DNA of 64,000 bases. Origin: Styela clava. Its lineage: Eukaryota; Chordata; Ascidiacea; Stolidobranchia; Styelidae. The notes under the pieces were generated by a model. It was not told the origin of the DNA, did not search any database, and saw nothing but the letters and a program-made list of their open reading frames with translations. Each line of letters opens with the position of its first letter. Positions within the stretch are counted from its first letter, which is position 1. The stretch covers positions 12,534,974-12,598,973 of the forward strand of contig NC_135259.1 in assembly GCF_964204865.1 (NCBI RefSeq), read 5' to 3'. Positions 44,939 to 59,213 of this stretch are shown here, piece by piece. The position numbers and the translations under genes are program-made.

Positions 44939-46258
44939 TTTAACAACATGTATTTTATTAGTTATTATTTAAGAATTTGATTTTGAATTGTATATTTGAA
45001 CATTGATGAGTATTCCTAATATATCAACAAGGTCGAACGTTATCATGTGGAAATGAATCTACTGCTTAGCAGATTTAATTATCAACTGACAGGTAACTAA
45101 CTTATCGAGGTCGCGTCAGATTTCTCGAGTTGATTAAACTATATTAGACCATATTCCAAAAGTGCAAGAGCGCTCGATAAAACACCCATAGCCCCAAGGG
45201 GATGCTCAAAGTCTTTCGTCTGTTCGCCGTCGGGCGGTGTGAATTGCTTTGTGTAACTCATTGTTTAAAAGCATAACTACAAACATATATATATACATTA
45301 AAAATAATATAGAAAATTGGGTGCTACTCTGGTATGGGATCTTAGCAGCGGTTATGACATCTCAGTGATTTTAGTTATTTTATGAGAATGTCTTTATGAG
45401 AATAAATTTATCTTTGTTGTTGCCACTTTGGCAGGCAATTGAGATCACGTTAAGCAAGTGATATCGCATGCCAAAGTGGCAGCGAAACTTGTAGATAGTG
45501 AAGCATATATTGTCTGGTAGTAGGAAGTTTATCACTCATGTGAAATGCGTAGATACTGATGTTACAAATGCTATCAAAAATTATGAAGACGTCAATTGTG
45601 CGTTTTGAACTGTCATCAGTATATACCTATTTTCAGCTGTTCTGGGGTCATGCCATGCAACCGAGCCTATGTCATAGACATAGATACAAAATTTTACATA
45701 CATATTTATATAAGCAGTTAGTATGTTCAGAAAGATATAAGGGTAAGTATTGTATTGTAAAATGAATCAATTATCCATCTCATTCAAACAAATCTGAGCA
45801 TAATAATATTATTGACGCTGACACCAAATTAACCTGTAAATGTTTACCATGGCATGCAGCGAATTTCATTTTTAATATATATAATCGGTTTTCCATTGAT
45901 CAAACCCTCAATGGCTCAAGGATTACATTACAAAAACAGTCAAATATATTTTCATGGCCGGTTATAATAATATTAACCTTAAATATATCAAGAGCCGATT
46001 AAAAACATTACTCACAAAATCATAAAAAAATAATTTTAATGGTCATAACATAAAACCTTTAGAATGTAATTTTGTCCTGCATATGACCAAAGCGTAGCTT
46101 CAGTATCGGCCAATTGACTTGGCCATTGTTATCGTACAAAAAACGCAGCATTGTCAACGACGTTAGTGAATTAAGATAATCAGCTATTTTGCTCTCAGCC
46201 AAATATAATAAAGTTATTAAATATTGATTTCATTGTATTTTTTACCTTATTTGCAAGA
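44939..46258. other. intergenic; upstream part of duplicated lectin unit A
   Basis: From about 45145 this region aligns with 55222-56286: shared phrases include TCTTTCGTCTGTTCG, GAGATCACGTTAAGCAAGTG, GTCTGGTAGTAGG and TTACCATGGCATGCAG. It therefore carries the duplicated promoter-side DNA of the lectin copies and a hairpin-forming repeat (45421). No coding exon recognised. Confidence 0.65.
45421..45482. repeat. hairpin repeat, copy 1
   Basis: TGCCACTTTGGCA and TGCCAAAGTGGCA are exact inverted 13-base arms around a spacer containing GAGATCACGTTAAGCAAGTG. The same element is at 55383-55443, and a decayed relative lies near 44263-44330. Confidence 0.75.
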
Positions 46259-47779
46259 ATGAAGTTTCGTTGTTTCCTGTTGCTGTATATTTTTATCTTG
46301 CCGAACGAGCTGATGATATGTGGTAAAACAGGTTTGTTTATATTTTGTCGTTATTTAAGTAATGCTTGGTCTAAGCTAAAAAATTGAAGGTTAATCAGTT
46401 TGGAAAATTTATCAAACCAAATATCATTAACTAAATAAAGCAATGCTTGTCAAAATCTAATCAGGCTGAATGAAAATAGTGATAAAGAATAAAAATCAAA
46501 AATATACATCTCAACTAATATCTGTAAAATAGCAGGAAACCTGGTCACGTTTTTGATAATGAGTACGAATGCTGGTTTCAACTATGTAAACTTAAAAACA
46601 AATAATTTAGCTCAAAATAATTATCGTTTTCCCATAACTTTGATTGATAAAGATGAAAATATAAGAACAACTCAAATCTTTTGTTATATGTTACCGGTGA
46701 ATTGTTCTATTTCATTTTCTACAAACATTTTGGAATGATCACTTCAAGTTTATACGCGTTAGGTAAATTATATACAGACAAGGAGTCACGAATAATAAAA
46801 ACTTTTGCATTTAGGTGACTTGTGCATCCACAAACTTGTTAAAGGTCGTCTCGTTACTGAAGGTTTCTGTGAGACTCCAAATGAACAAGGTGGGAATATG
46901 CATTGAATAGCACGTTATTGTCAAGATTTTTCGTGAGAATTAATTTTTATTTTATTTACAACAGATATTATCACCCAACTGCGAAACGATGTAGAAGCTG
47001 CAAAGGAAAGGGGTAAGTAAAAAAGGGGGGAGGGGATGATGGATTAAAAGAGGTTAGGTTTTGTATGATAAATGGTATAAGATGTTAAAAAAATAAAATA
47101 AAATCAATACGTTGATAAAGACGTAACGGCCATTAATTCACTAAACTATTTTACAGAAAAACTTAAAACCTGGTATAAAGCAAGCAACAACTTTTACTAC
47201 AAAATGTTCTTGGACCAGGTTTCTTATGCGACTGCCAAAGCAAACTGTCAAGAGAAAAAAGGCAAGTTTAGCTTCCGTTGGTGTTCGCGATTCTTCAATA
47301 AGAAAGTGAGTATTGAATTATTGTTTCAAATACGAAAGCGATGAAGTATAAGTTCGATTACAAAATGCAATACACATTGAAAGAACTTGCTATGTTTTAT
47401 ATCAGAATATTATTTATACAAATAGCTGCATGATATGTTTGCGGAATAGTGTTGTTTATTTAACTATGTTTTTTATATATTACAAAAACAATATTTTACT
47501 CTTATCATCAATAAACATTCAATAATGTTTTTAATCCACAGTCATTTAATCAGTCTTGCCAGTGGAGAACATGTGTGGATTGGATTGAATGATATTGAAC
47601 ATGAAGGCAACTTTATTTGGGAGGATGGCGTCGTTTCCACCGCAGATAATACTCCTTGGATAGATCCACAACCTGATAACGCTGCGGGAAATGAAGATTG
47701 CGTCGAATTGACGGAAAATTCATTAAATGACCTTGATTGTTCTAGTTTATTACCGTATATATGTGAAAAATTTGTTTGA
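46259..47779 (+). pseudogene. C-type lectin, duplicate A, frameshifted
   Basis: Exons 46259-46331 (or ending 46322), 46815-46889, 46965-47012, 47157-47305 and 47542-47779 match duplicate B. The product would have a signal peptide (MKFRCFLLLYIFILPNELM), a Cys-containing segment, a short helical neck (QLRNDVEAAKER), then the lectin domain with VWIGLNDIEHEGNFIWEDG, WIDPQPDNAAGNEDC and YICEKFV. In exon 5 the run after GAG has six A (47255-47260) against five in duplicate B. This makes the exon 149 instead of 148 bases, shifts the frame before the core of the domain and leads to a stop early in exon 6. QPD, the galactose-type motif, is present downstream of the break. It may be a young pseudogene or a homopolymer error in the assembly. 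Confidence 0.7.
46536..46738 (+). other. possible alternative terminal exon of lectin duplicate A
   Basis: After an AG acceptor at 46535 an open frame continues in the phase set by exon 1 and ends in TGA at 46738. It encodes about 67 residues with two Cys (for example IFCYMLPVNCSISFSTN). Duplicate B has the same frame, with about 3 differences by eye in 200 bases. If spliced in, it would give a short secreted protein without a lectin domain. It may equally be intron sequence. Confidence 0.4.
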
Positions 47780-48349
47780 GCACAAACTGATTATAATTCT
47801 TTCTTTCTTTGTATCATCAATAGATGTTGAGTACCGGTAATTAGTATTTTGGCTTTAAATTGGTTATGTAATTCATTCGGTAATTAAATTAATGATTATC
47901 TGCATCGAGAATTTCAATAAATATTGAGGTTTCGTTTTACTTTATTGATTATTTATTTTGTAATATTCAATAGCTGTATGTGCTTTTAAATTTCTTCACT
48001 TAATTTTGTAATATATTAAACACAAACATCATACTTTTTTAGGTTTATTCTAACTGTAAAAAACTTAAAGTTTATATAATTCTATATTTGGAACTGCAAT
48101 AATTTCACAATTTATCAGGAAAGTGAAGGTTATTTTTTAGGTATATTGTTATCTTCACATATTAAATTTGCAGCGTCAAAATCTGAATTTTAATAGGGCG
48201 ATATCAAATTTCTTCCAAACTAGGTTTCAAGGTATGTAGCCGATCAAATTGTTACAAAACTTATGTAGTGTACCCGATCTTACGGTTGTTTTAAGCGTGG
48301 TGGTGGAGATAAAAGTCGAGATAATTCGTTGGGTAAAAACAAGTATAAC
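47780..48349. other. 3' flank of lectin duplicate A
   Basis: AT-rich and alignable with 57778-58320 of unit B. AATAAA near 47918 is a candidate polyadenylation signal. No gene. Confidence 0.6.
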
Positions 48350-48392: not shown

Positions 48393-50520
48393 CTGAAGAC
48401 GCGTTTTGCTCACTAGAGCGTGAAAGCGTGGTCAGTCATGCATAAAATTTGCATTTTATTGCTGGCTGAGAACTTCTGCACATTTGAGGTGAATTTCAAG
48501 TTTGTAGGACCAATTTGAAAAAAAAAATAATAAAATAAATAATAATAATAAATAAATATTAATAATAATAAATAAATAATAATAATAACTAGAGCTGCGT
48601 GCAGCTTTAACAGGCTTCCCGCGTAAAAAAAACTGAAGACGCGTTTTGCTCACTGGAGCGTGAAAGCATGGTCAGTCATGCATAAAATTTGCAATTTATG
48701 ATGGGGGACTTATTATCTGCATGTGATGTAAATTTGAAGTCTCTAAGTAGTCTCGTTCTCGAGAAGAAGATGAAAATGTAAAATCCTATATTGCTCACTG
48801 GAGCGTATCGCCGAGGTCACTCATGCGTATCCTTGACATATCGTATCCGGAACATGTCCATTAATCATTGTTATGAATTTCAACCCAATAGCATGTATCA
48901 ATTTTGAGAAATCGCAAAAAAAACTGAAGTCGCGTTTTGCTCACTGGAGCGTGAAAGCGTGGTCAGTCATGCATCAAATTTGCATTTTATTGCTAGCTGA
49001 GAACTTCTGCACATTTGAGGTGAATTTCAAGTTTGTAGGACCAATTTGGAAAAAAAATAATAAAAATAAATAATAACTAGAGCTGCGTGCAGCTTTAACA
49101 TGCTTCCCGCGTAAAAAAAACTGAAGACGCGTTTTGCTCACTGGAGCGTGAAAGCGTGGTCAGTCATGCATAAAATTTGCAATTTATGATGGGGGACTTA
49201 TTATCTGCATGTGATGTAAATTTCAAGTCTCCAAGTAGTGTCGTTCTCGAGAAGAAGATGAAAATGTAAAATCCTATATTGCTCACTGGAGCGTATCTCC
49301 GAGGTCACTCATGCGTATCCTTGACATATCGTGTCCGGAACATGTCCATTAATCATTGTTATGAATTTCAATCCAATAGCATGTATCAATTTTGAGAAAT
49401 CGCAAAAAAACTGAAGACGCGTTTTGCTCACTGGAGTGTGAAAGCGTGGTCAGTCATGCATAAAATTTGCAATTTATGATGGGGGACTTATTATCTGCAT
49501 GTGATGTAAATTTCAGTCTCTAAGTAGTGTCGTTCTCGAGAGGAAGATGAAAATGTAAAATCCTATATTGCTCACTGGAGCGTATCGCCGAGGTCACTCA
49601 TGCGTATCCTTGACATATCGTATCCGGAACATGTCCATTAATCATTGTTATGAATTTCAACCCAATAGCATGTATCAATTTTGAGAAATCGCAAAAATAC
49701 TGAAGACGCGTTTTGCTCACTGGAGCGTGAAAGCGTGGTCAGTCATGCATGAAATTTGCATTTTATTGCTAGCTGAGAACTTCTGCACATTTGAGGTCAA
49801 TTTCAAGTATGTAGGACCAATTTGAAAAAAAAATAATAAAAATAAATAAATAATAATAATAATAATAAAACACAGGAATACAATAGGTTCCCTGCTGACA
49901 AGCAGCGGGAAGCCTAACTAGAGCTGCGTGCAGCTTTAACAGGCTTCCCGCGTAAAAAAAACTGAAGACGCGTTTTGCTCACTAGAGCGTGAAAGCGTGG
50001 TCAGTCATGCATAAAATTTGCAATTTATGATGGGGGACTTATTATCTGCATGTGATGTAAATTTCAAATCGCAAAAAAACTGAAGACACGTTTTGCTCAC
50101 TGGAGCGTGAAAGCGTGGTCAGTCATGCATAAAATTTGCAATTTATGATGGGGGACTTATTATCTGCATGTGATGTAAATTTCAAGTCTCTAAGTAGTGT
50201 CGTTCTCGAGAAGAAGATGAAAATGTAAAATCCTATATTGCTCACTGGAGCGTATCGCCGAGGTCACTCATGCGTATCCTTGACATATCGTATCCGGAAC
50301 ATGTCCATTAATCATTGTTATGAATTTCAACCCAATAGCATGTATCAATTTTGAGAAATCGCAAAAAAACTGAAAACGCGTTTTGCTCACTGAAGCGTGA
50401 AAGCGTGGTCAGTCATGCATAAAATTTGCATTTTATTGCTAGCTGAGAACTTCTGCGCATTTGAGGTGAATTTCAAGTTTGTAGGACTAATTTGAAAAAA
50501 AAATAATAAAAATAAATAAA
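48393..50520 (+). repeat. tandem array of related 150-300 base blocks
   Basis: Nine block starts lie at about 48393, 48633, 48924, 49121, 49411, 49700, 49962, 50080 and 50370. Short blocks continue into TTGCTAGCTGAGAACTTCTG and an A-rich AAT tail. Long blocks continue into GATGGGGGACTTATTATC and CGGAACATGTCCATTAATC. Sequence between copies is almost identical, so the expansion is recent. Spacers are not unique and unit length is far above CRISPR size. Confidence 0.85.
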
Positions 50521-50549
50521 TAAATAATAATAATAATAATAATAATAAT

Positions 50550-50595
50550 CCTACCTACGGACTGTTGCCTTGTCGTGGCAGGTAGGCTTTAGTCC
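50550..50595 (+). ncRNA. candidate HDV-like self-cleaving ribozyme at LINE 5' end
   Basis: CCTACCT (50550-50556) can pair with AGGTAGG (50580-50586). Between them TGCC (50566-50569) pairs with GGCA (50577-50580) around a 7-base loop, and GGACT (50559-50563) pairs with AGTCC (50591-50595), crossing the first helix. A280 is shared at one junction, so one helix loses a pair there. The order (P1, P2, P3, P3', P1', P2') is that of HDV-like ribozymes, which are known at the 5' ends of R2 and related LINEs, where cleavage sets the RNA 5' end. P1 starts at the first base after the AAT tract, as expected. P4 is not evident in this minimal fold. Confidence 0.5.
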
Positions 50596-50728
50596 CTTAG
50601 TGAACCCACAAACTGTGCTGGCGGGAGTTATAACTCCTGGTAGGGTCACCCATGCCAGAGAGATTGTGGGGGAAAGGGCAAACTAAAACAGTCCACCGCT
50701 TGGGAGTAGCGTTCAATACTCCCATCTC

Positions 50729-53700
50729 ATGAAAATGATGGAAAAGAAATCAAGTAAAAAGCACAACGGCGTGAATGGGACTGAGTCAACTACGACCAGT
50801 GTCTCGCCCGGTACGGTAGACGGGGTTGTCGACCAGCCGCCTCCGGATCGTCATTCTACTACTGGTCGCCGAAAGTGGAGTAAAGAATCAAATGAAGTGT
50901 TAATGAAATGTTATTTGAAAAGTGAACCACAGCTTAGAGGCTATAGACAACGAATGAAACGTTTTTGGGATGAGAACAACTTGTTTGATGCATCAGAACA
51001 ACGATTAGCAGATCAGATTAGACAAATAAAGTTGAATGGTTGGTTAACTGTAGTCGAAATAGAAAACATTCAAAGGTCAATTAACTCTAGTTCCGATCCA
51101 TCGCCAGATGAGCCAGAAAGTTTGCCGGCAGTAAGGACAATTGAGGTGGAGGAACAACTTTGTGATTGCCGCGAAAACACCGAAGAAGTGGAAGTTTTAG
51201 ATGATGTTACCAGGAGAATTCTTGAAATAGCCCAAGAACAACGTTTACGCCAAGTTCCTTCAGTTCGAACTATTCCAAAATATAAACTATTCAGAGAAAC
51301 AAGTGTAATAAACCAGGCCCTAAAAGGAATTAGCTCGACTAACATAACGGAAACAAATAAGTTAATTTATGCCGGAGCAATAGCCGTCACTGAAAGACTA
51401 AGCCTCAATGTAAACGGAAGAAAATGTAAAGAGCCAGCCTGGAAATTACGATTACACAATAAGATACAAGAGATGAGAAGAGATATTGACAGACTACAAA
51501 AATTTGAAACGATCAAGAAAAATAAACTGAAAAAAGAATTGATGGAGAAATACAGAGTAAAACAGAAAGGATTGTCATGCGCAACTGAAGAACTTCGACA
51601 AAGAATAATTGCAACTGCAGCAAAAATCAAGAGATATACAGAGAGAACAAGACAATTTCGCCAAAATAAACTGTTTGAAAGCAATCAAAAGCAATTATAT
51701 CGGGAGTTATCAGGCGATTTTCATACCAGTAAGGATGTAAGTAGAGAACCACAGAATTGCAGAGAATTTTGGAACAACATCTGGGGATCTAAAACCACTC
51801 ATAATCAAAAATCTGCTTGGTTAAAAACAGTAAAGAAAGAATTGGAAAATATTCCTACTCAATTAAATTTCACGATAACTGAAGAAATTCTCAAAAGGCA
51901 ATTGAAAAAACTAGCTAATTGGAAGTCTCCAGGGGTTGATATGGTACAGGCATACTGGGTGAAAAAGTTCACTAGTCTGCATGCACGGATTGCAAAACAA
52001 CTTGACTACTGTCTTCAGCAAGGCAAGGTTCCAAGTTGGATTACCGAAGGAAAAGCAGTATTGATTTTGAAAAACGAAAACAAGGGAAATAGTGCTAATA
52101 ATTTTCGACCAATAACTTGTTTACCAATCATATGGAAATTATTTACAGGAATGATTGCAACTAGTATATATGACCACATTGAACAAAACGATTTATTCCC
52201 GACGGAGCAGAAAGGGTGCAAGAGAGGGTCGCGTGGGCCAAAGGATCAACTTTTAATTGACAAAATGGTCTTGGATAACTGCAGAAAACGAAAAACAAGT
52301 TTATCCATGGCATGGATAGATTATCGTAAAGCTTACGATATGATTCCCCATTCATGGATTTCCAAATGCCTGGATTTGTTTGCAATAGCCAAAAATTTGA
52401 AAAAACTAGTCATAAACAGTATGGAAACATGGAGAACGCATTTGACGGCAAATGGAAAACATTACGGAGAAATTCAAATAAAAAGAGGAATATTTCAGGG
52501 CGATACTCTCTCTCCACTTCTTTTTGTTCTGTGTATGATTCCACTGACGATGGTTTTGAGAAAAACAACACAATCATACTGCATAGGAAAAGGAAAGGAG
52601 CGGCTGAACCATCTCTTGTACATGGACGATTTGAAACTATTCGGAAAAAACGACAAAGAAATAGACTCTTTAGTGAAAACTGTACACATTTTCAGTCGGG
52701 ATATTGGAATGGATTTTGGGATAGATAAATGCGCAGTATTAAGTATGAAAAGGGGAAAAATTACTGACAGTGTGGGAATTTGTTTACCAGATGGGAATAG
52801 CATGAGCCAGCTCGAGGAAAGCAATGGATACAAATACCTTGGAATATTGGAATCAAATTCGATAAACGAAAATCAAATGAAGAAACTGATCATCCATGAA
52901 TATACTAAACGATTAAAACAAATTCTAAAATCAAAATTAAATGGCGGCAACATTATCAAAGCTATTAACATACGTGCAGTTTCGGTAATTAGATACAGCG
53001 CTGTTTTTATTGGTTGGTCAAAAAACAATCTTGAAAAGCTCGACCGTAAGTCAAGAAAACTTTTAACAATGTACGGAATGCTTCATCCCAGAGGTGATGT
53101 TGACAGATTGTATTTGCCAAGGCAAATGGGGGGCCGTGGATTAATGAGTGTTGAGGACTGTGTTCAAGCAGAGAAGAAAAGTATGACAGAGTATGCAGAG
53201 AATAGTGAAGATATTTTGATGAAAGCCGTGTATCGCGAGGGTATTTTGTGTGGCGACGAAGACTCAAATGCATTTAAAGAAAGGAAAATAGATGAAAGAA
53301 TGGAAAGGTGGAAAGAAAAACCGTTGCATGGGAAATACCTTCGTGAAACTAAAAATATAATGGTCGAGGACTCATGGAACTGGCTAAAGAAAGGATACCT
53401 CAAGAAGGAAACGGAAGGTTTGATAACAGCTGCTCAAGAACAGGCTTTGAGAACAAATGTTATCAAAGCAAAAATCGAAAAGCGGGGAGTGTCTGCAAAA
53501 TGTAGAATGTGTGATGCAAGAGATGAGACAGTTTTTCATATATTGTGTGAATGCTCAAAATTGGCGCAAAGAGAATACAAATATCGACACGATAATCTAG
53601 CAAGAATTGTTCATTGGGAACTCTGCAAACTATACGGCCTTAACAGAGAAAATAATTGGTACGACCACACCCCAGAAAAATCACAAAACAATGATAACGT

Positions 53701-53995
53701 TACGATTCTATGGGATTTTAACATACAAACAGACCACGTCATTACCCACAGAAGGCCTGATATTGTAGTAATAAATTCATCCGAAAATACATGCTTGATA
53801 ATCGACATAGCAGTTCCGGCCGATCATCGTATTTTATTAAAGGAAAAAGAAAAAATAGAAAAAATATCAAGATTTACGGAGAGAAATGGGAAAAATATGG
53901 AATGTAAAAACGAGAATTATACCTGTTGTCGTTGGTGCCTTGGGTGCAATATCAAACAAGCTAGAAGGGTATTTAAAAGATATGAATTTGCCTAA
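50729..53995 (+). CDS. LINE polyprotein: Myb-like, reverse transcriptase, RLE endonuclease
   Basis: 1088 codons. Residues about 46-110 form a Myb-like DNA-binding region (RRKWSKESNEVLMKCY, SEQRLADQIRQI). About 190-345 is rich in charged helices. Reverse transcriptase spans about 400-720: FRPITCLPIIWKLF, the first catalytic Asp in WIDYRKAYD, IFQGDTLSPLLF, and YMDD at about 631-634. A zinc knuckle C-x2-C-x8-H-x4-C starts near 925 (CRMCDARDETVFHILCEC). The restriction-like endonuclease has RRPDIVV near 1008 and IIDIAVP, keeping its catalytic acids. Retrotransposition would be by target-primed reverse transcription. The last part of the frame (about 53886 on) loses similarity to the family, and the expected C-terminus continues in the next frame to 54068. 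The first ATG after the leader was taken as the start. Confidence 0.9.
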   Translation: MKMMEKKSSKKHNGVNGTESTTTSVSPGTVDGVVDQPPPDRHSTTGRRKWSKESNEVLMKCYLKSEPQLRGYRQRMKRFWDENNLFDASEQRLADQIRQIKLNGWLTVVEIENIQRSINSSSDPSPDEPESLPAVRTIEVEEQLCDCRENTEEVEVLDDVTRRILEIAQEQRLRQVPSVRTIPKYKLFRETSVINQALKGISSTNITETNKLIYAGAIAVTERLSLNVNGRKCKEPAWKLRLHNKIQEMRRDIDRLQKFETIKKNKLKKELMEKYRVKQKGLSCATEELRQRIIATAAKIKRYTERTRQFRQNKLFESNQKQLYRELSGDFHTSKDVSREPQNCREFWNNIWGSKTTHNQKSAWLKTVKKELENIPTQLNFTITEEILKRQLKKLANWKSPGVDMVQAYWVKKFTSLHARIAKQLDYCLQQGKVPSWITEGKAVLILKNENKGNSANNFRPITCLPIIWKLFTGMIATSIYDHIEQNDLFPTEQKGCKRGSRGPKDQLLIDKMVLDNCRKRKTSLSMAWIDYRKAYDMIPHSWISKCLDLFAIAKNLKKLVINSMETWRTHLTANGKHYGEIQIKRGIFQGDTLSPLLFVLCMIPLTMVLRKTTQSYCIGKGKERLNHLLYMDDLKLFGKNDKEIDSLVKTVHIFSRDIGMDFGIDKCAVLSMKRGKITDSVGICLPDGNSMSQLEESNGYKYLGILESNSINENQMKKLIIHEYTKRLKQILKSKLNGGNIIKAINIRAVSVIRYSAVFIGWSKNNLEKLDRKSRKLLTMYGMLHPRGDVDRLYLPRQMGGRGLMSVEDCVQAEKKSMTEYAENSEDILMKAVYREGILCGDEDSNAFKERKIDERMERWKEKPLHGKYLRETKNIMVEDSWNWLKKGYLKKETEGLITAAQEQALRTNVIKAKIEKRGVSAKCRMCDARDETVFHILCECSKLAQREYKYRHDNLARIVHWELCKLYGLNRENNWYDHTPEKSQNNDNVTILWDFNIQTDHVITHRRPDIVVINSSENTCLIIDIAVPADHRILLKEKEKIEKISRFTERNGKNMECKNENYTCCRWCLGCNIKQARRVFKRYEFA

Positions 53996-54068: not shown

Positions 54069-54655
54069 GGACGCGGGACGTGTCTCGATTTCAAGAAAAT
54101 ATACACCAGTCAAAGAACTGTGAATAAATTTAACAAAAATAAATAATAATAATAAAACACAGGAATACAATAGGTTCCCTGCTGACAATCAGCGGGAAGC
54201 CTAATAATAAATAAATAATAATAATAATAAAACACAGGAATACAATAGGTTCCCTGCTGACAAGCAGCGGGAAGCCTAATAATCAGATTCTGAAGCATAT
54301 AGTAAAATTGCCAAGAACACTTTTGTGCATAATACCTTAACATATCGTCTTCTATTGGGAAAATTTCATAGCTTAACTCCAAATTTTTCTCAAACCAAGA
54401 ATATGATAAACTTCAACTTCAAATTCTCATTGTTGGTTACAGATGGATATTTTAACATAATTCGTGGTAAAGTAATGTGTATCTTACTTAATAAAATAAC
54501 CGTGGTATTAACTTCAAAATATGAAATGAGCATGAAGCCTCAAAAGTTTCTCCCGACCACGACATGGCTCCTAAACCCTGATCTGAATCTTCAGAATTTT
54601 CGTGCACGATAATGTAAACATAGATTCGCTGGAATCCTGCCATTAACAAAACACG

Positions 54656-55221: not shown

Positions 55222-55382
55222 TAGACCATATTCTCAAAGTGCCAGTGCGATGGATAAAAACACCTATAACCTCAGGGCGATACTCGGGTCTTTCGTCTGT
55301 TCGTCGCCGGGTGGTTTGATCTCAGTGGTTTTAGTTATTCTACGAGAAATATTCTTACGAGATTGAACGCCAGCACAATCGG

Positions 55383-55443
55383 TGCCACTCTGGTATGCGA
55401 TTGAGATCACGTTAAGCAAGTGCGATCGCATACCAAAGTGGCA
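55383..55443. repeat. hairpin repeat, copy 2
   Basis: TGCCACTCTGGTATGCGAT and ATCGCATACCAAAGTGGCA pair over 19 bases with one mismatch; the spacer again holds GAGATCACGTTAAGCAAGTG. Better preserved than the copy at 45421. Confidence 0.75.
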
Positions 55444-56286
55444 TCGAAAATTGTAGATTGTGAAGCACATAGTGTCTGGTAGTAGGGAGTTTATCACATT
55501 TATGTGAAATAGGTTGATCCTGATGTTGCTATGCTATAAATATTTTGATGACGTCAAATGTGCGTTGCAACTGTCATCAGTACTCTTAATATTTGCTGTT
55601 CCGGGCTCATGCCTATGAAATCTCATTTGCAACCGAGCCTATGTCATAGATACAAAATTTAACAAGTTTATATACGCAATCTATATGATCAGAAAGATAC
55701 AAGGGTATAATAAAATGTATAAGAAGGGTATAATGTATTATAAAATGAATCAAATATCCATTTCATTCAAACAATCTGATAATTATTGACGCTAACACCA
55801 AAGTAACCTGTAAATGTTTACCATGGCATGCAGTAAGGAATTTTATTTTTTAGAAATATAAACGTTTTTACATCGATTAAACCCTAAATGGCTCCAGAAT
55901 GAGATTACAAAAACATCCAATAATAATTAAAATGTAAAATATATTTTCATGGCCGGTTATAATAATAGTAACCTTAATATAACAAGAGCCGATTACAAAC
56001 ATTACTCACAAAAATCAGTTGCTCACATCTATGTTCACGGAAAAATCATAAAAATATAATTTTAATGGTCATAACATGGAATCTTTAGAATGTATTTTTG
56101 TCCTGCATATGACCAAAGCGTAGCCTAAGTATGAGCCAATTTATTGTTGTCACCGCCAATAGAACGCAGCTTAATCAACGACGTGTAGTGAATTAAAATA
56201 ATCAGCTATATATATACTGTTTCCAGCTAAATATACTAAAGTTATTAAAGTTTAATTTCATTGTACTTTTTACCCTATTTGCAAGA

Positions 56287-57777
56287 ATGAAGTTTCGTTG
56301 TTTCCTATTGCTGTATATTATTATCTTGCCGAACGAGCTGATGATATTTGGTAAAACAGGTTTGTTTATATTTTGTCGTTATTTAAGTAATGCTTGGTCT
56401 AAGCTAAAAAATTGAAGGTTAATCAGTTTGGAAAATTTATCAAATCAACTAAATAGAGCAATGCTTGTCAAAATCTAATCAGGCTGAAAGAAAATATTGA
56501 TAGAGAATAAAAATCGAAAACATACATCTCAACTAATATCTGTGAAATAGCAGGAAATCTGGTCACGTTTTTGATAATGAGTACGAATGCTGGTTTCAAC
56601 TATGTAAACTTAAAAACAAATAATTTAGCTCAAAATATATATCGTTTTCCCATAACTTTGATTGATAAAGATGAAAATATAAGAACAACTCAAATCTTTT
56701 GTTATATGTTACCGGTGAATTGTTCTATTTCATTTTCTACAAACATTTTGGAATGATCACTTTAAGTTTATACGCGTTAGATAAATTATATACAGACAAG
56801 GAGTCGTCACGAATAATAAAAACGTTTGCATTTAGGTGACTTGTGCATCCACAAACTTGTTAAAGGTCGTCTCGTTACTAAAGGTTTCTGTGAGACTCCG
56901 AATGAACAAGGTGGGAATATGTATTGAATAGCACATTTTTGTCATAATTTTTCTGAAATTTCCATTTTTTTTCTATTTACAACAGAAATGATCACACAAC
57001 TGCGAAATAATGTAGAAGCTGCAAAGGAAAGGGGTAAGTAAAAAAGGGGGTGATGGATTAAGAGAGGTTAGGTTTTGTAAGATAATGGTATAAGATGTTA
57101 AAAAAAAAATACGTTGATAAAGACGTAACGGCCATTCATTCACTAAACTATTTTACAGAAAAACTTAAAACCTGGTATAAAGCAAGCAACAACTTTTACT
57201 ACAAAATGTTCTTGGACCAGGTATCTTATGCGACTGCCAAAGCAAACTGTCAAGAGAAAAAGGCAAATTTAGCTTCCGTTGGTGTTCGCGATTCTTCAAT
57301 GAGAAAGTGAGTATTGAATTATTGTTTCAAATACGAAAGCGATGAAGTATAAGTTCGATTACATAATGCAATACACATTGAAAGACCTTGCTATGTTCTA
57401 TATCAGAATATTATTTATACAAATAGCTGCATAATATGTTTGCAAAATAGTGTAGTTTAATTACCTATGTTTTTTAAATATCACAAAAACAATATTTTAC
57501 TCCTATCATCAATAAACATTCAATAATGTTTTTAATTCACAGTCATTTAATCAGTCTTGCCAGTGGGGAAAATGTGTGGATTGGATTGAATGATATTGAG
57601 CATGAAGGCAACTTTATTTGGGAGGATGGCGTCGTTTCCACCGCAGATAATACTCCTTGGATAAATCCGCCTGATGACTATGAAGGAAATGAAGATTGCG
57701 TCCATTTGACAGAAACTTCATTAAATGACTATGATTGTTCTAAGTTATTACCATATATTTGTGAAAAATTTGTTTGA
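56287..57777 (+). CDS. secreted C-type lectin, duplicate B
   Basis: Exons 56287-56359 (or ending 56350 at a GTAAAA donor, also phase 1), 56836-56910, 56986-57033, 57159-57306 and 57543-57777 join in phase to 192 codons (189 with the earlier donor) plus TGA. It has a signal peptide (MKFRCFLLLYIIILPNELM), then DLCIHKLVKGR with two Cys, a short neck (QLRNNVEAAKER), and a complete lectin domain: KANCQEKKANLASVGVRDSS, VWIGLNDIEHEGNFIWEDG, WINPPDDYEGNEDC and YICEKFV. The ligand loop has lost one residue relative to duplicate A, changing QPD to PPD, so galactose-type binding is doubtful. The exon-5 frame is intact (five A where duplicate A has six). AATAAA lies near 57914. A TATATATA tract about 75 bases upstream of the ATG is missing from duplicate A. 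Confidence 0.88.
56554..56756 (+). other. possible alternative terminal exon of lectin duplicate B
   Basis: Same position, phase and stop as 46536-46738 in duplicate A, with only about three differences by eye. It would end translation after about 67 residues, giving a short secreted product with two Cys instead of a lectin. Confidence 0.4.
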
Positions 57778-59213
57778 GCGCAAACTGATTATAACTCTTT
57801 TTTTCTCTGCTTCATCAATAGATGTTAAGTAATTAGTATTTTGGCTTTAAATTGGTTATATAATTCATTCGTTAATTAAATAAAATTAATGATTAACTGC
57901 ATCGAGACTTTCAATAAATGTTGAGGTTTCGTTTTACTTTCAATAGCTGTATGTGCTTTTGAATTTTTCACTCAATTTTTGTAATATATAAAACACAAAC
58001 ATCATACTTTTTTTATGCTTATTCTATCTGTAAAAAAATTAAAGTTTGTATAATTCTATATTTGGAACTGCAATAATTTCACAATTTATCAGGAAAGTAA
58101 AGGGTATTTTTTAAGTATATTGCTATATTCACATATTCAATTTGAAGCGTCAAAATCTGCATTTTATAGTGAGATATCAAATTTTTTCCAAACTAGGTTT
58201 CTAGGTCTGTACCCGATCAAATTGTTACAAAACTTATGTAGTGTACCCCATCTTACGGTTGTTTTAAGCGTGGTGGTGGAGATAAAAGTCAAGATAATTC
58301 GTGGGGAAAAAACGAGTGTAATAATCAGATTCTGAATGCATATATATATAGCAAAATTGCCAAGAACACTTTTGTGTATATTACCTTAACATATCGCACT
58401 CTATTGGAAAAAATTCATAGCTAAATTGCAAAGTTTTCTCAAACTAAGAATATGATAACATTTAACGTTACAAACATATATTCTCACAAATTTCTCCGTA
58501 AAATAATGTGTATCTTACTTTAAGATAACCTGGGTACTGACGACAAAATATGAAATGAGCATAATGCCCCAAAAGTTTCTTGCGACCACGACATGGCTCC
58601 TAAACCCTGATCGGAATCTTCGGAATTTTTGTGCACGAGGATGTAAACACGGGTTCGTTGTGATCCTGCCATTGCCCAAACACTTGGAATTGTCCTAACT
58701 TTTTTATACGTTGCTATTTTGCCGTTTGAAAGAATTGCGTTCCCAATCTAGGAAAAGCAAAATGAAAAAGAGATAAATTATATCTGTAAACAGTTATTAT
58801 ATTTGTTATTTTAAACTATGCTTATACATACAAAATATAAAAAGAGAGAATGGTCACATATATGAAAACAAGTGTCAAATTTAATATAAAAAAATTCCCA
58901 TGTCGTATAAATAAATGTGTTACCATGAATTTAATAAAAAAAAAAACAGCAAAACTTTGGGTGAAGTACGGGTTTACGTAGGACCGAGAGGGAAAAAGTA
59001 ATAGCCTTTTATCGACTTTTCCCGGCTTCAAGTAGGCCTACTGAAAAATTATCATTAGTAACGATGAAAACAAAAGCAACAATTTAGCCAACGATCCATA
59101 TCTATATTTTGTGTCTAGTAACTGATTACTTAAACTGGCTTAAAAGTTTGATAGCCGATAATTAGTGTCTTCTTTTTATATAATTTCAGAAAATAATAAA
59201 ATCCAACTCATAC
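57778..59213. other. 3' flank of lectin duplicate B and unit boundary
   Basis: To about 58690 this is the tail of unit B. From there to 59213 it is AT-rich. The expected final exon of the minus-strand lectin-like gene was looked for here and not found. Confidence 0.5.

Follow-up and report, generated by a model that had tools for sequence, protein, structure and literature searches.

The genomic HDV ribozyme has a J1/2 of two nucleotides, a GCC/GGC P3, U20, C24 and G25 in L3, the bases C75-G-A-A before P2′, and a G at position 1. HDV-like ribozymes that cut at the element 5′ end are carried by the LINEs R4 and Dong, and for Dong of Bombyx mori, which lies in TAA repeats, cleavage in vitro at the TAA/element junction was followed on a gel through a 21-nt upstream product made up of seven TAA units (Eickbush, Burke and Eickbush 2013, PMC3774820). 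The same paper describes the L3 G and U of HDV-like ribozymes.

The LINE reported here lies in a 64,000-nt stretch of Styela clava DNA (the window). Like Dong, a member of the R4 clade, it sits in a TAA/AAT microsatellite and has an HDV-like ribozyme, as predicted from its sequence, at its extreme 5′ end (PMC3774820); unlike Dong, which begins GCTCCCT according to a primer, it begins CCTACCT, and cleavage has been demonstrated in vitro for Dong whereas that of the window ribozyme is predicted. The ribozymes of Ascaris R4 and of R2 likewise form an HDV-like double pseudoknot and cut where the element begins or close by, as is predicted here (PMC3774820), but many R2s cut inside 28S rRNA, whereas P1 of the window ribozyme lies wholly within the element. 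The L1Tc/SIDER ribozymes of trypanosomatids are likewise HDV-like with a C at +1, but belong to another LINE clade and bear the 77-nt Pr77 signature (PMC4035085). Minimal and theta HDV-like ribozymes resemble it in having the catalytic C first in J4/2, but they lack P4, whereas in the window ribozyme P4 takes up about 85 nt (PMC10879173).

The LINE and its AAT target

The LINE and its surroundings comprise the following features.

50523–50549, plus strand: target tract (AAT)9 on the 5′ side of the insertion, ending at 50549 (from the sequence)
50652–50732, plus strand: short upstream frame, seen in the sequence only and perhaps due to chance
50729–53995, plus strand: LINE ORF with reverse transcriptase, CCHC and RPD..D endonuclease-like motif (domain search, and motifs by eye)
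54129–54155, plus strand: LINE 3′ end meeting the AAT tract, exact base ambiguous (comparison with the repeat unit at 49693)

The insertion is hosted by an AAT tract inside a tandem repeat; in the neighbouring unit, at 49693, matching flanks enclose an uninterrupted tract. On either side of this tandem repeat lies one copy of a direct duplication (window 45359–48348 and 55319–58321), about 3 kb long, the two copies being 86% identical. The ORF matches RVT_1 (E 7.9e-26), its product has R2 proteins as its best PDB matches, and near its end we spotted by eye a CCHC and an RPD..ID motif, the latter presumably belonging to a restriction-like endonuclease. The element seems to be an R4/Dong-type LINE. 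In the window copy the frame stops early, at 53995, and the tail that can be aligned with L001, a contig introduced below, extends in a different frame as far as about 54067. Between the ribozyme end and the first in-frame ATG of the ORF lie 34 nt. The upstream frame has 26 codons, and its TGA (50730–50732) overlaps that ATG (50729–50731) as ATGA, an arrangement that could serve termination-initiation coupling or could equally have arisen by chance.

A search of the animal's own genome (376.6 Mb) with the leader listed at least 11 matches. Among these, full leaders identical at 181 of 181 positions occur at three places, L023, L024 (the window copy) and L025, the last belonging to a copy with an internal deletion. 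All three begin at CCTACCT, after AAAT, AAT and ATA, so that the 5′ end is exact and the AAT phase varies. Among the matches listed, AAT tracts precede all three leader-bearing copies and also a 5′-truncated one, L033, in which the tract is followed (at L033:254) by leader nucleotide 151, the ribozyme being nucleotides 1–145; this single copy looks as if reverse transcription had halted at the folded ribozyme. The remaining seven listed matches have ribozyme sequence with no LINE in the flanks examined.

Beyond this genome, an RT pattern search of genome_contigs returned one contig, L001, filed under Streptomyces narbonensis, which encodes a LINE protein about 31% identical, has no 5′ leader and is probably a eukaryotic contaminant. 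No LINE relative was found in viral_contigs with two leader patterns and one RT pattern; there, 3 pattern matches by protein and 118 by two-row alignment yielded none that was confirmed. A tblastn search of plasmids and phages gave zero matches, and a non-random sample of twenty 10-kb stretches of contig C13 held no LINE copy.

A 145-nt HDV-like fold at the LINE 5′ end

An earlier note on this DNA had proposed an HDV-like ribozyme that is confined to 50550–50595 and begins exactly where the LINE does. The placement agrees with our results, since (AAT)9 ends at 50549 and the fold begins with the next base, the first of the LINE; the extent does not, as the fold is 145 nt long and runs to 50694, so that the leader is mostly P4. 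Over 50550–50694 the helices follow the nested double-pseudoknot order P1-P2-P3-P1′-P4-P2′. Rows mentioned below are those of two alignments of the LINE with its diverged homologues: A2, with six rows (LINE, L026, L027, L030, L028 and L031; L029, identical to L028, and the incomplete L032 were left out), and A3, with the four intact rows, which are four distinct sequences. The parts of the fold are as follows.

50550–50694, plus strand: HDV-like ribozyme with a predicted cut between 50549 and 50550 (fold, descriptor, shuffles)
50550–50556, plus strand: 5′ strand of P1, CCTACCT, partner 50580–50586, 7 bp; P1 unchanged throughout the 4 rows of A3
50559–50566, plus strand: 5′ strand of P2, GGACTGTT, partner 50687–50694; 93.8% of P2 cells paired over four rows
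50567–50579, plus strand: P3, GCC 50567–50569 with GGC 50577–50579, and L3, TTGTCGT; P3 invariant in 6 of 6 rows
50580–50586, plus strand: 3′ strand of P1, AGGTAGG
50591–50595, plus strand: AGTCC, the P2′ proposed earlier, unsupported; falls in J1/4 and the first P4 bases
50594–50678, plus strand: P4 domain (computed folding and homologues)
50594–50598 with 50674–50678, plus strand: P4 helix CCCTT/AAGGG
50605–50611 with 50664–50670, plus strand: P4 helix CCCACAA/TTGTGGG
50618–50622 with 50654–50658, plus strand: P4 helix CTGGC/GCCAG
50624–50628 with 50633–50637, plus strand: P4 tip helix GGAGT/ACTCC, 70% paired across rows
50683–50686, plus strand: J4/2, CTAA, with C50683 the candidate catalytic cytosine; CTAA in 5 of 6 rows, CTAT in L031
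50687–50694, plus strand: 3′ strand of P2, AACAGTCC, which becomes AACAGTAC in L026, opposite GTACTGTT

The strings named in the earlier note are present as given (CCTACCT with AGGTAGG for P1; GGACT 50559–50563 with AGTCC 50591–50595 for P2), and its P1 is retained here. Its P2 has to be replaced, however: AGTCC at 50591–50595 is changed in four of the six distinct diverged homologues (ACTCC in L026, AGCCT in L030, AATCC in L028 and ATTCC in L031; kept in L027 and L032), whereas the new P2′, as AACAGT(C/A)C, is kept in five of the six and missing in L032. AGTCC occurs twice in the leader, the second time at 50690–50694 within AACAGTCC, and the pairing of GGACTGTT with AACAGTCC is the sole exact 8-mer complement between 50550–50586 and 50587–50730. 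Of the TGCC/GGCA hairpin that had been described inside P1, the GCC/GGC part forms as P3; the outer T/A pair does not, A50580 being taken up by P1′ and T50566 by P2. The further hairpin, GGAGTTATAACTCC at 50624–50637, had been offered either as P4 or as a separate element; being enclosed by P2 once its partner is 50687–50694, it is the tip of the P4 domain.

The C expected in J4/2 was found at 50683, four nt before P2′, which is the spacing of the catalytic C of HDV; it is kept in 6 of 6 rows, and a second C, 50679, is the first base after P4 as drawn. By HDV numbering, U50570, C50574 and G50575 in L3 correspond to the L3 U, C and G of HDV, including the U and G of the reverse wobble, and the two-nt J1/2 and GCC/GGC P3 also agree with HDV. 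The differences from the HDV ribozyme are an L3 shorter by one nt, a P1.1 of no more than one pair, and a C in place of G at position 1. The only P1.1 pair possible, G50572–C50587, is identical in 6 of 6 rows. A C at position 1 is no obstacle, given that trypanosomatid ribozymes have C at +1 (PMC4035085).

Frequency of the fold by chance and competing folds

A strict descriptor, written after the sequence had been seen, admitted Watson-Crick pairs throughout, with a P1 of 7, a P2 of at least 6 and a P3 of 3 bp. It found 31 starts on the plus strand of the window and 14 on the minus strand, of which 50550 was the sole one having a hit with neither P1 nor P2 purely A/T. In dinucleotide shuffles of 50550–50730 the strict fold arose anywhere in 1 of 20,000 and, in a second set, 65 of 400,000 (29 of the 65 with a C 4–5 nt ahead of P2′), and at the first base in none of either set. 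No match to the Rfam HDV family was obtained at 50400–51000 with E up to 10, where two weak matches were to unrelated families, and the whole window gave nothing at the gathering threshold; an Rfam match is not a defining feature of HDV-like ribozymes. Our own model R1, built from the window sequence and three homologues, matches 50550–50697 by construction.

The nested minimum fold of 50550–50730 has −67.4 kcal/mol (z = −2.60; 1 of 200 shuffles equally stable), and pairs GGACUGUU with AACAGUCC as well as UUAGU 50589–50593 with ACUAA 50682–50686, a competing helix that would hide the candidate catalytic C. L027 can form all five pairs of this helix, L026 and L030 four, and L028 and L031 three. 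When P1 and P3 are imposed and J4/2 is kept open, the estimated energy is −47.9, to which P2 adds −10.6; the most stable nested fold of these bases has −53.5, the pseudoknot penalty not being counted.

Diverged homologues and covariation

Of the seven matches with no LINE in the flanks examined, three are complete.

L026, C18:14465355–14465501, minus strand: complete HDV-like fold
L027, C6:18964773–18964948, plus strand: complete HDV-like fold
L030, C18:17132334–17132482, minus strand: complete HDV-like fold

The homologues are 82–89% identical to the LINE ribozyme. L028 and L029, which are identical, and L031 are without P1 and the outer 5′ strand of P2, and L032 has the first 50 nt of the ribozyme only, with P1′ altered. 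The bases of L3 and J4/2 are mostly conserved across the homologues, and the signs of decay in L028 and L031 are a damaged P1 and, in L028, a change of the L3 G to A; in a Nasonia R2 ribozyme, an L3 G to A change accompanied cleavage loss (PMC3774820).

In P2, AACAGTCC is unchanged in L027, L030, L028 and L031. L026 has GTACTGTT and AACAGTAC, again a perfect 8 bp, with one double change, G-C to U-A, at 50560/50693 after re-registering. In L027 and L030 the 5′ strand is longer by one U, giving a bulge or one mismatch. Three further pairs show double changes on A3, all in P4 (50595/50677, 50610/50665 and 50624/50637); the P2 change falls outside this count because the aligner sets the gap one column away. 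At least three such pairs were reached by 29 of 500 shuffles, and a slide of +2 also yields two. On A3, 93.8% of cells are paired, versus 36.7–50.6% with the partners slid; 115 of 500 shuffles reach 93.8%, and the pair 50609/50666 is lost in two of the four rows. P1 and P3, being invariant in the alignment, are uninformative. The compensatory changes sought in other copies thus exist but are few, and covariation support for the fold, at three P4 pairs and one P2 pair, is thin.

A second element carrying the predicted ribozyme

The ribozymes of L026, L027 and L030 lie 76, 111 and 93 nt, respectively, behind the stop codon of a long ORF, and each is preceded by ATATTTTT. Upstream of the ribozyme the three loci are alike for at least 1.5 kb, and continuous likeness stops 1–3 nt past P2′; a further block of 95–311 nt, at 71–82%, lies about 0.8–1.5 kb downstream. 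At the L026 locus, one ORF has at least 1098 aa, being open at the edge of the piece examined, and contains an OTU domain (E 1.6e-5); another, of 1773 aa, contains a PIF1 helicase (E 1.4e-11) and a GIY-YIG domain (E 1.2e-4). No Rep family was among the Pfam hits at E 0.1 for the ORFs of this locus; an H-x-H stretch looks Rep-like.

A protein search with the last 473 aa of the 1773-aa ORF listed 23 matches. Six of them have open frames of 1761–2871 aa free of internal stops, namely the query locus and five at 69–71% aa identity; the other 17 are lesser matches, 12 with stops. Differences in the ORF amount to 0.21–0.25, 0.10–0.14 and 0.47–0.50 at codon positions 1, 2 and 3, and the low second-position and high third-position values indicate that the protein is under constraint. 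Between pairs of the three complete copies, the ribozyme is identical at 129, 117 and 119 of 145 positions with no indels, the ORF end at 977/1385, 1014/1403 and 1012/1385 (71–73%; 13–31 gapped columns), the 3′ UTR at 47/75, 43/75 and 51/92 (17–35 gapped columns) and the 150 nt behind the ribozyme at 46/130, 59/150 and 63/134. The ribozyme DNA is therefore more alike than the coding, 3′ UTR and downstream DNA, and roughly equals second codon positions. The element ribozymes are 81–89% identical among themselves and 82–89% to that of the LINE.

Of the six long-frame copies, three have a whole ribozyme, L032 has its first 50 nt, and a pair on C2, L036 and L037, which differ once in 801 nt, have 26-nt remnants. 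L032 (28–361, minus strand) and L036 (233–570) have another 3′ stretch in common, 87.6% alike over 340 columns and beginning inside the piece of ribozyme core, which is possibly another structured RNA. The ribozyme also occurs in a third context, decayed and with P1 gone, in a 1.4-kb repeat that is 90% alike over 1441 columns (L028/L029 on C6, L031 on C18); this repeat (L028:589–2003; L035, minus strand) precedes the L027 and L026 elements and is on their strand.

Discussion

The fold that the sequence can form, its active-site pattern, the exact 5′ end common to three copies and the preservation of the fold in three diverged homologues lead us to conclude, with a probability of about 0.88, that an R4/Dong-type LINE here begins with a self-cleaving ribozyme of HDV-like kind, its first 145 nt (50550–50694), which cuts before C50550 to give an exact RNA 5′ end. 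Cleavage at 50549/50550, its site and its role are predictions from these features. Read-through transcripts would enter the LINE from the flanking AAT repeat and fold co-transcriptionally into P1 (7 bp), P2 (8 bp), P3 and the long P4, with P2 able to close only once 50694 had been transcribed; C50683 would then act as general acid in the cut before C50550, so that the element RNA would enter target-primed reverse transcription with a precisely defined 5′ end. We propose that such an end would make CCTACCT the start of every full copy, irrespective of the phase of the AAT tract.

The shorter version put forward earlier, a minimal fold without P4 at 50550–50595 in which GGACT/AGTCC is P2, draws on pairs that do exist in the window copy, on the retention of AGTCC in L027 and L032, and on the existence of HDV-like ribozymes without P4 (PMC10879173). 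We find it scarcely credible: its P2′ is altered in four of the six distinct homologues, no C-N-A-A stands ahead of it, its duplex has −5.4 kcal/mol versus −10.6 with AACAGTCC as partner, and conservation among the element copies extends to 1–3 nt past 50694. The leader might instead be a nested, non-catalytic RNA (a signal for packaging, translation or protein binding) built on the helix GGACUGUU/AACAGUCC, with an HDV-like order that is incidental, as the computed minimum for 50550–50730 (−67.4 kcal/mol, z −2.60) is indeed nested. In such a fold CCTACCT has no partner, yet neither strand of P1 varies among the four intact copies and the L3 and J4/2 bases are mostly kept; with the related Dong leader known to cut (PMC3774820), this explanation is very improbable.

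That the ribozyme is a relic, now inactive in the window copy and its family, is also very improbable, if slightly less so. The frame break near the 3′ end of the window ORF, the internal deletion of L025 and the decay exemplified by L028 and L031 (P1 damaged in both, the L3 G changed in L028) would fit this reading, but the core helices of the window leader are complete and the leaders of the three LINE copies, at three places, are the same in all 181 positions. On the preferred reading, of an HDV-like ribozyme extending to 50694, the earlier suggestion that a ribozyme in this lineage would reveal the way its RNA 5′ end arises brings nothing new should the LINE be of R4/Dong type, because R4 and Dong already carry such ribozymes (PMC3774820).

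The element behind whose gene the homologues lie resembles Helentrons and Helitrons in its PIF1-type helicase and OTU domain, the latter being known from animal Helentrons (PMC6431247), but differs from them in having no Rep family at E 0.1, a GIY-YIG end and a 3′ ribozyme. With Penelope-like elements and Terminons it shares GIY-YIG and, if the predicted cleavage holds, self-cleaving ribozymes, which in Terminons are located at the 3′ end (PMC6431247); their ribozymes, however, are hammerheads, and those elements encode reverse transcriptase. Our literature searches, which covered open-licence papers and hence give no proof of absence, found no report of a Helitron-like or helicase/GIY-YIG element with an HDV-like ribozyme. 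The parts of PMC6431247 used here deal with hammerhead ribozymes, GIY-YIG and OTU and contain no HDV-like ribozyme, and a term count found no word beginning 'helitron' in the main text of PMC3414825.

We infer that the ribozyme cuts the element transcript just past the stop codon. It may be, at close to even odds, that the ribozyme is a module common to two unrelated selfish lineages, serving one, an R4-type LINE, at its 5′ end and the other, an OTU/PIF1-helicase/GIY-YIG element, in its 3′ region, where it would process the transcript 3′ end. The 3′ region of the element would then have supplied the LINE with its 5′ end, or else the element captured a LINE leader and put it to use.

In conclusion, HDV-like 5′ ribozymes are known for LINEs from R4 and Dong, and what is new here is a well-conserved sister behind the gene of another element. 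For the LINE, our analysis adds a well-defined R4/Dong-type ribozyme, with its helices corrected and a candidate catalytic C named. If the wider reading is true, a self-cleaving RNA that makes the 5′ end of a LINE would also have been retained behind a helicase/GIY-YIG gene, an HDV-like ribozyme would serve 3′ processing in a DNA-transposon-like element, and the exchange of ribozymes between mobile elements would be traceable within one genome.
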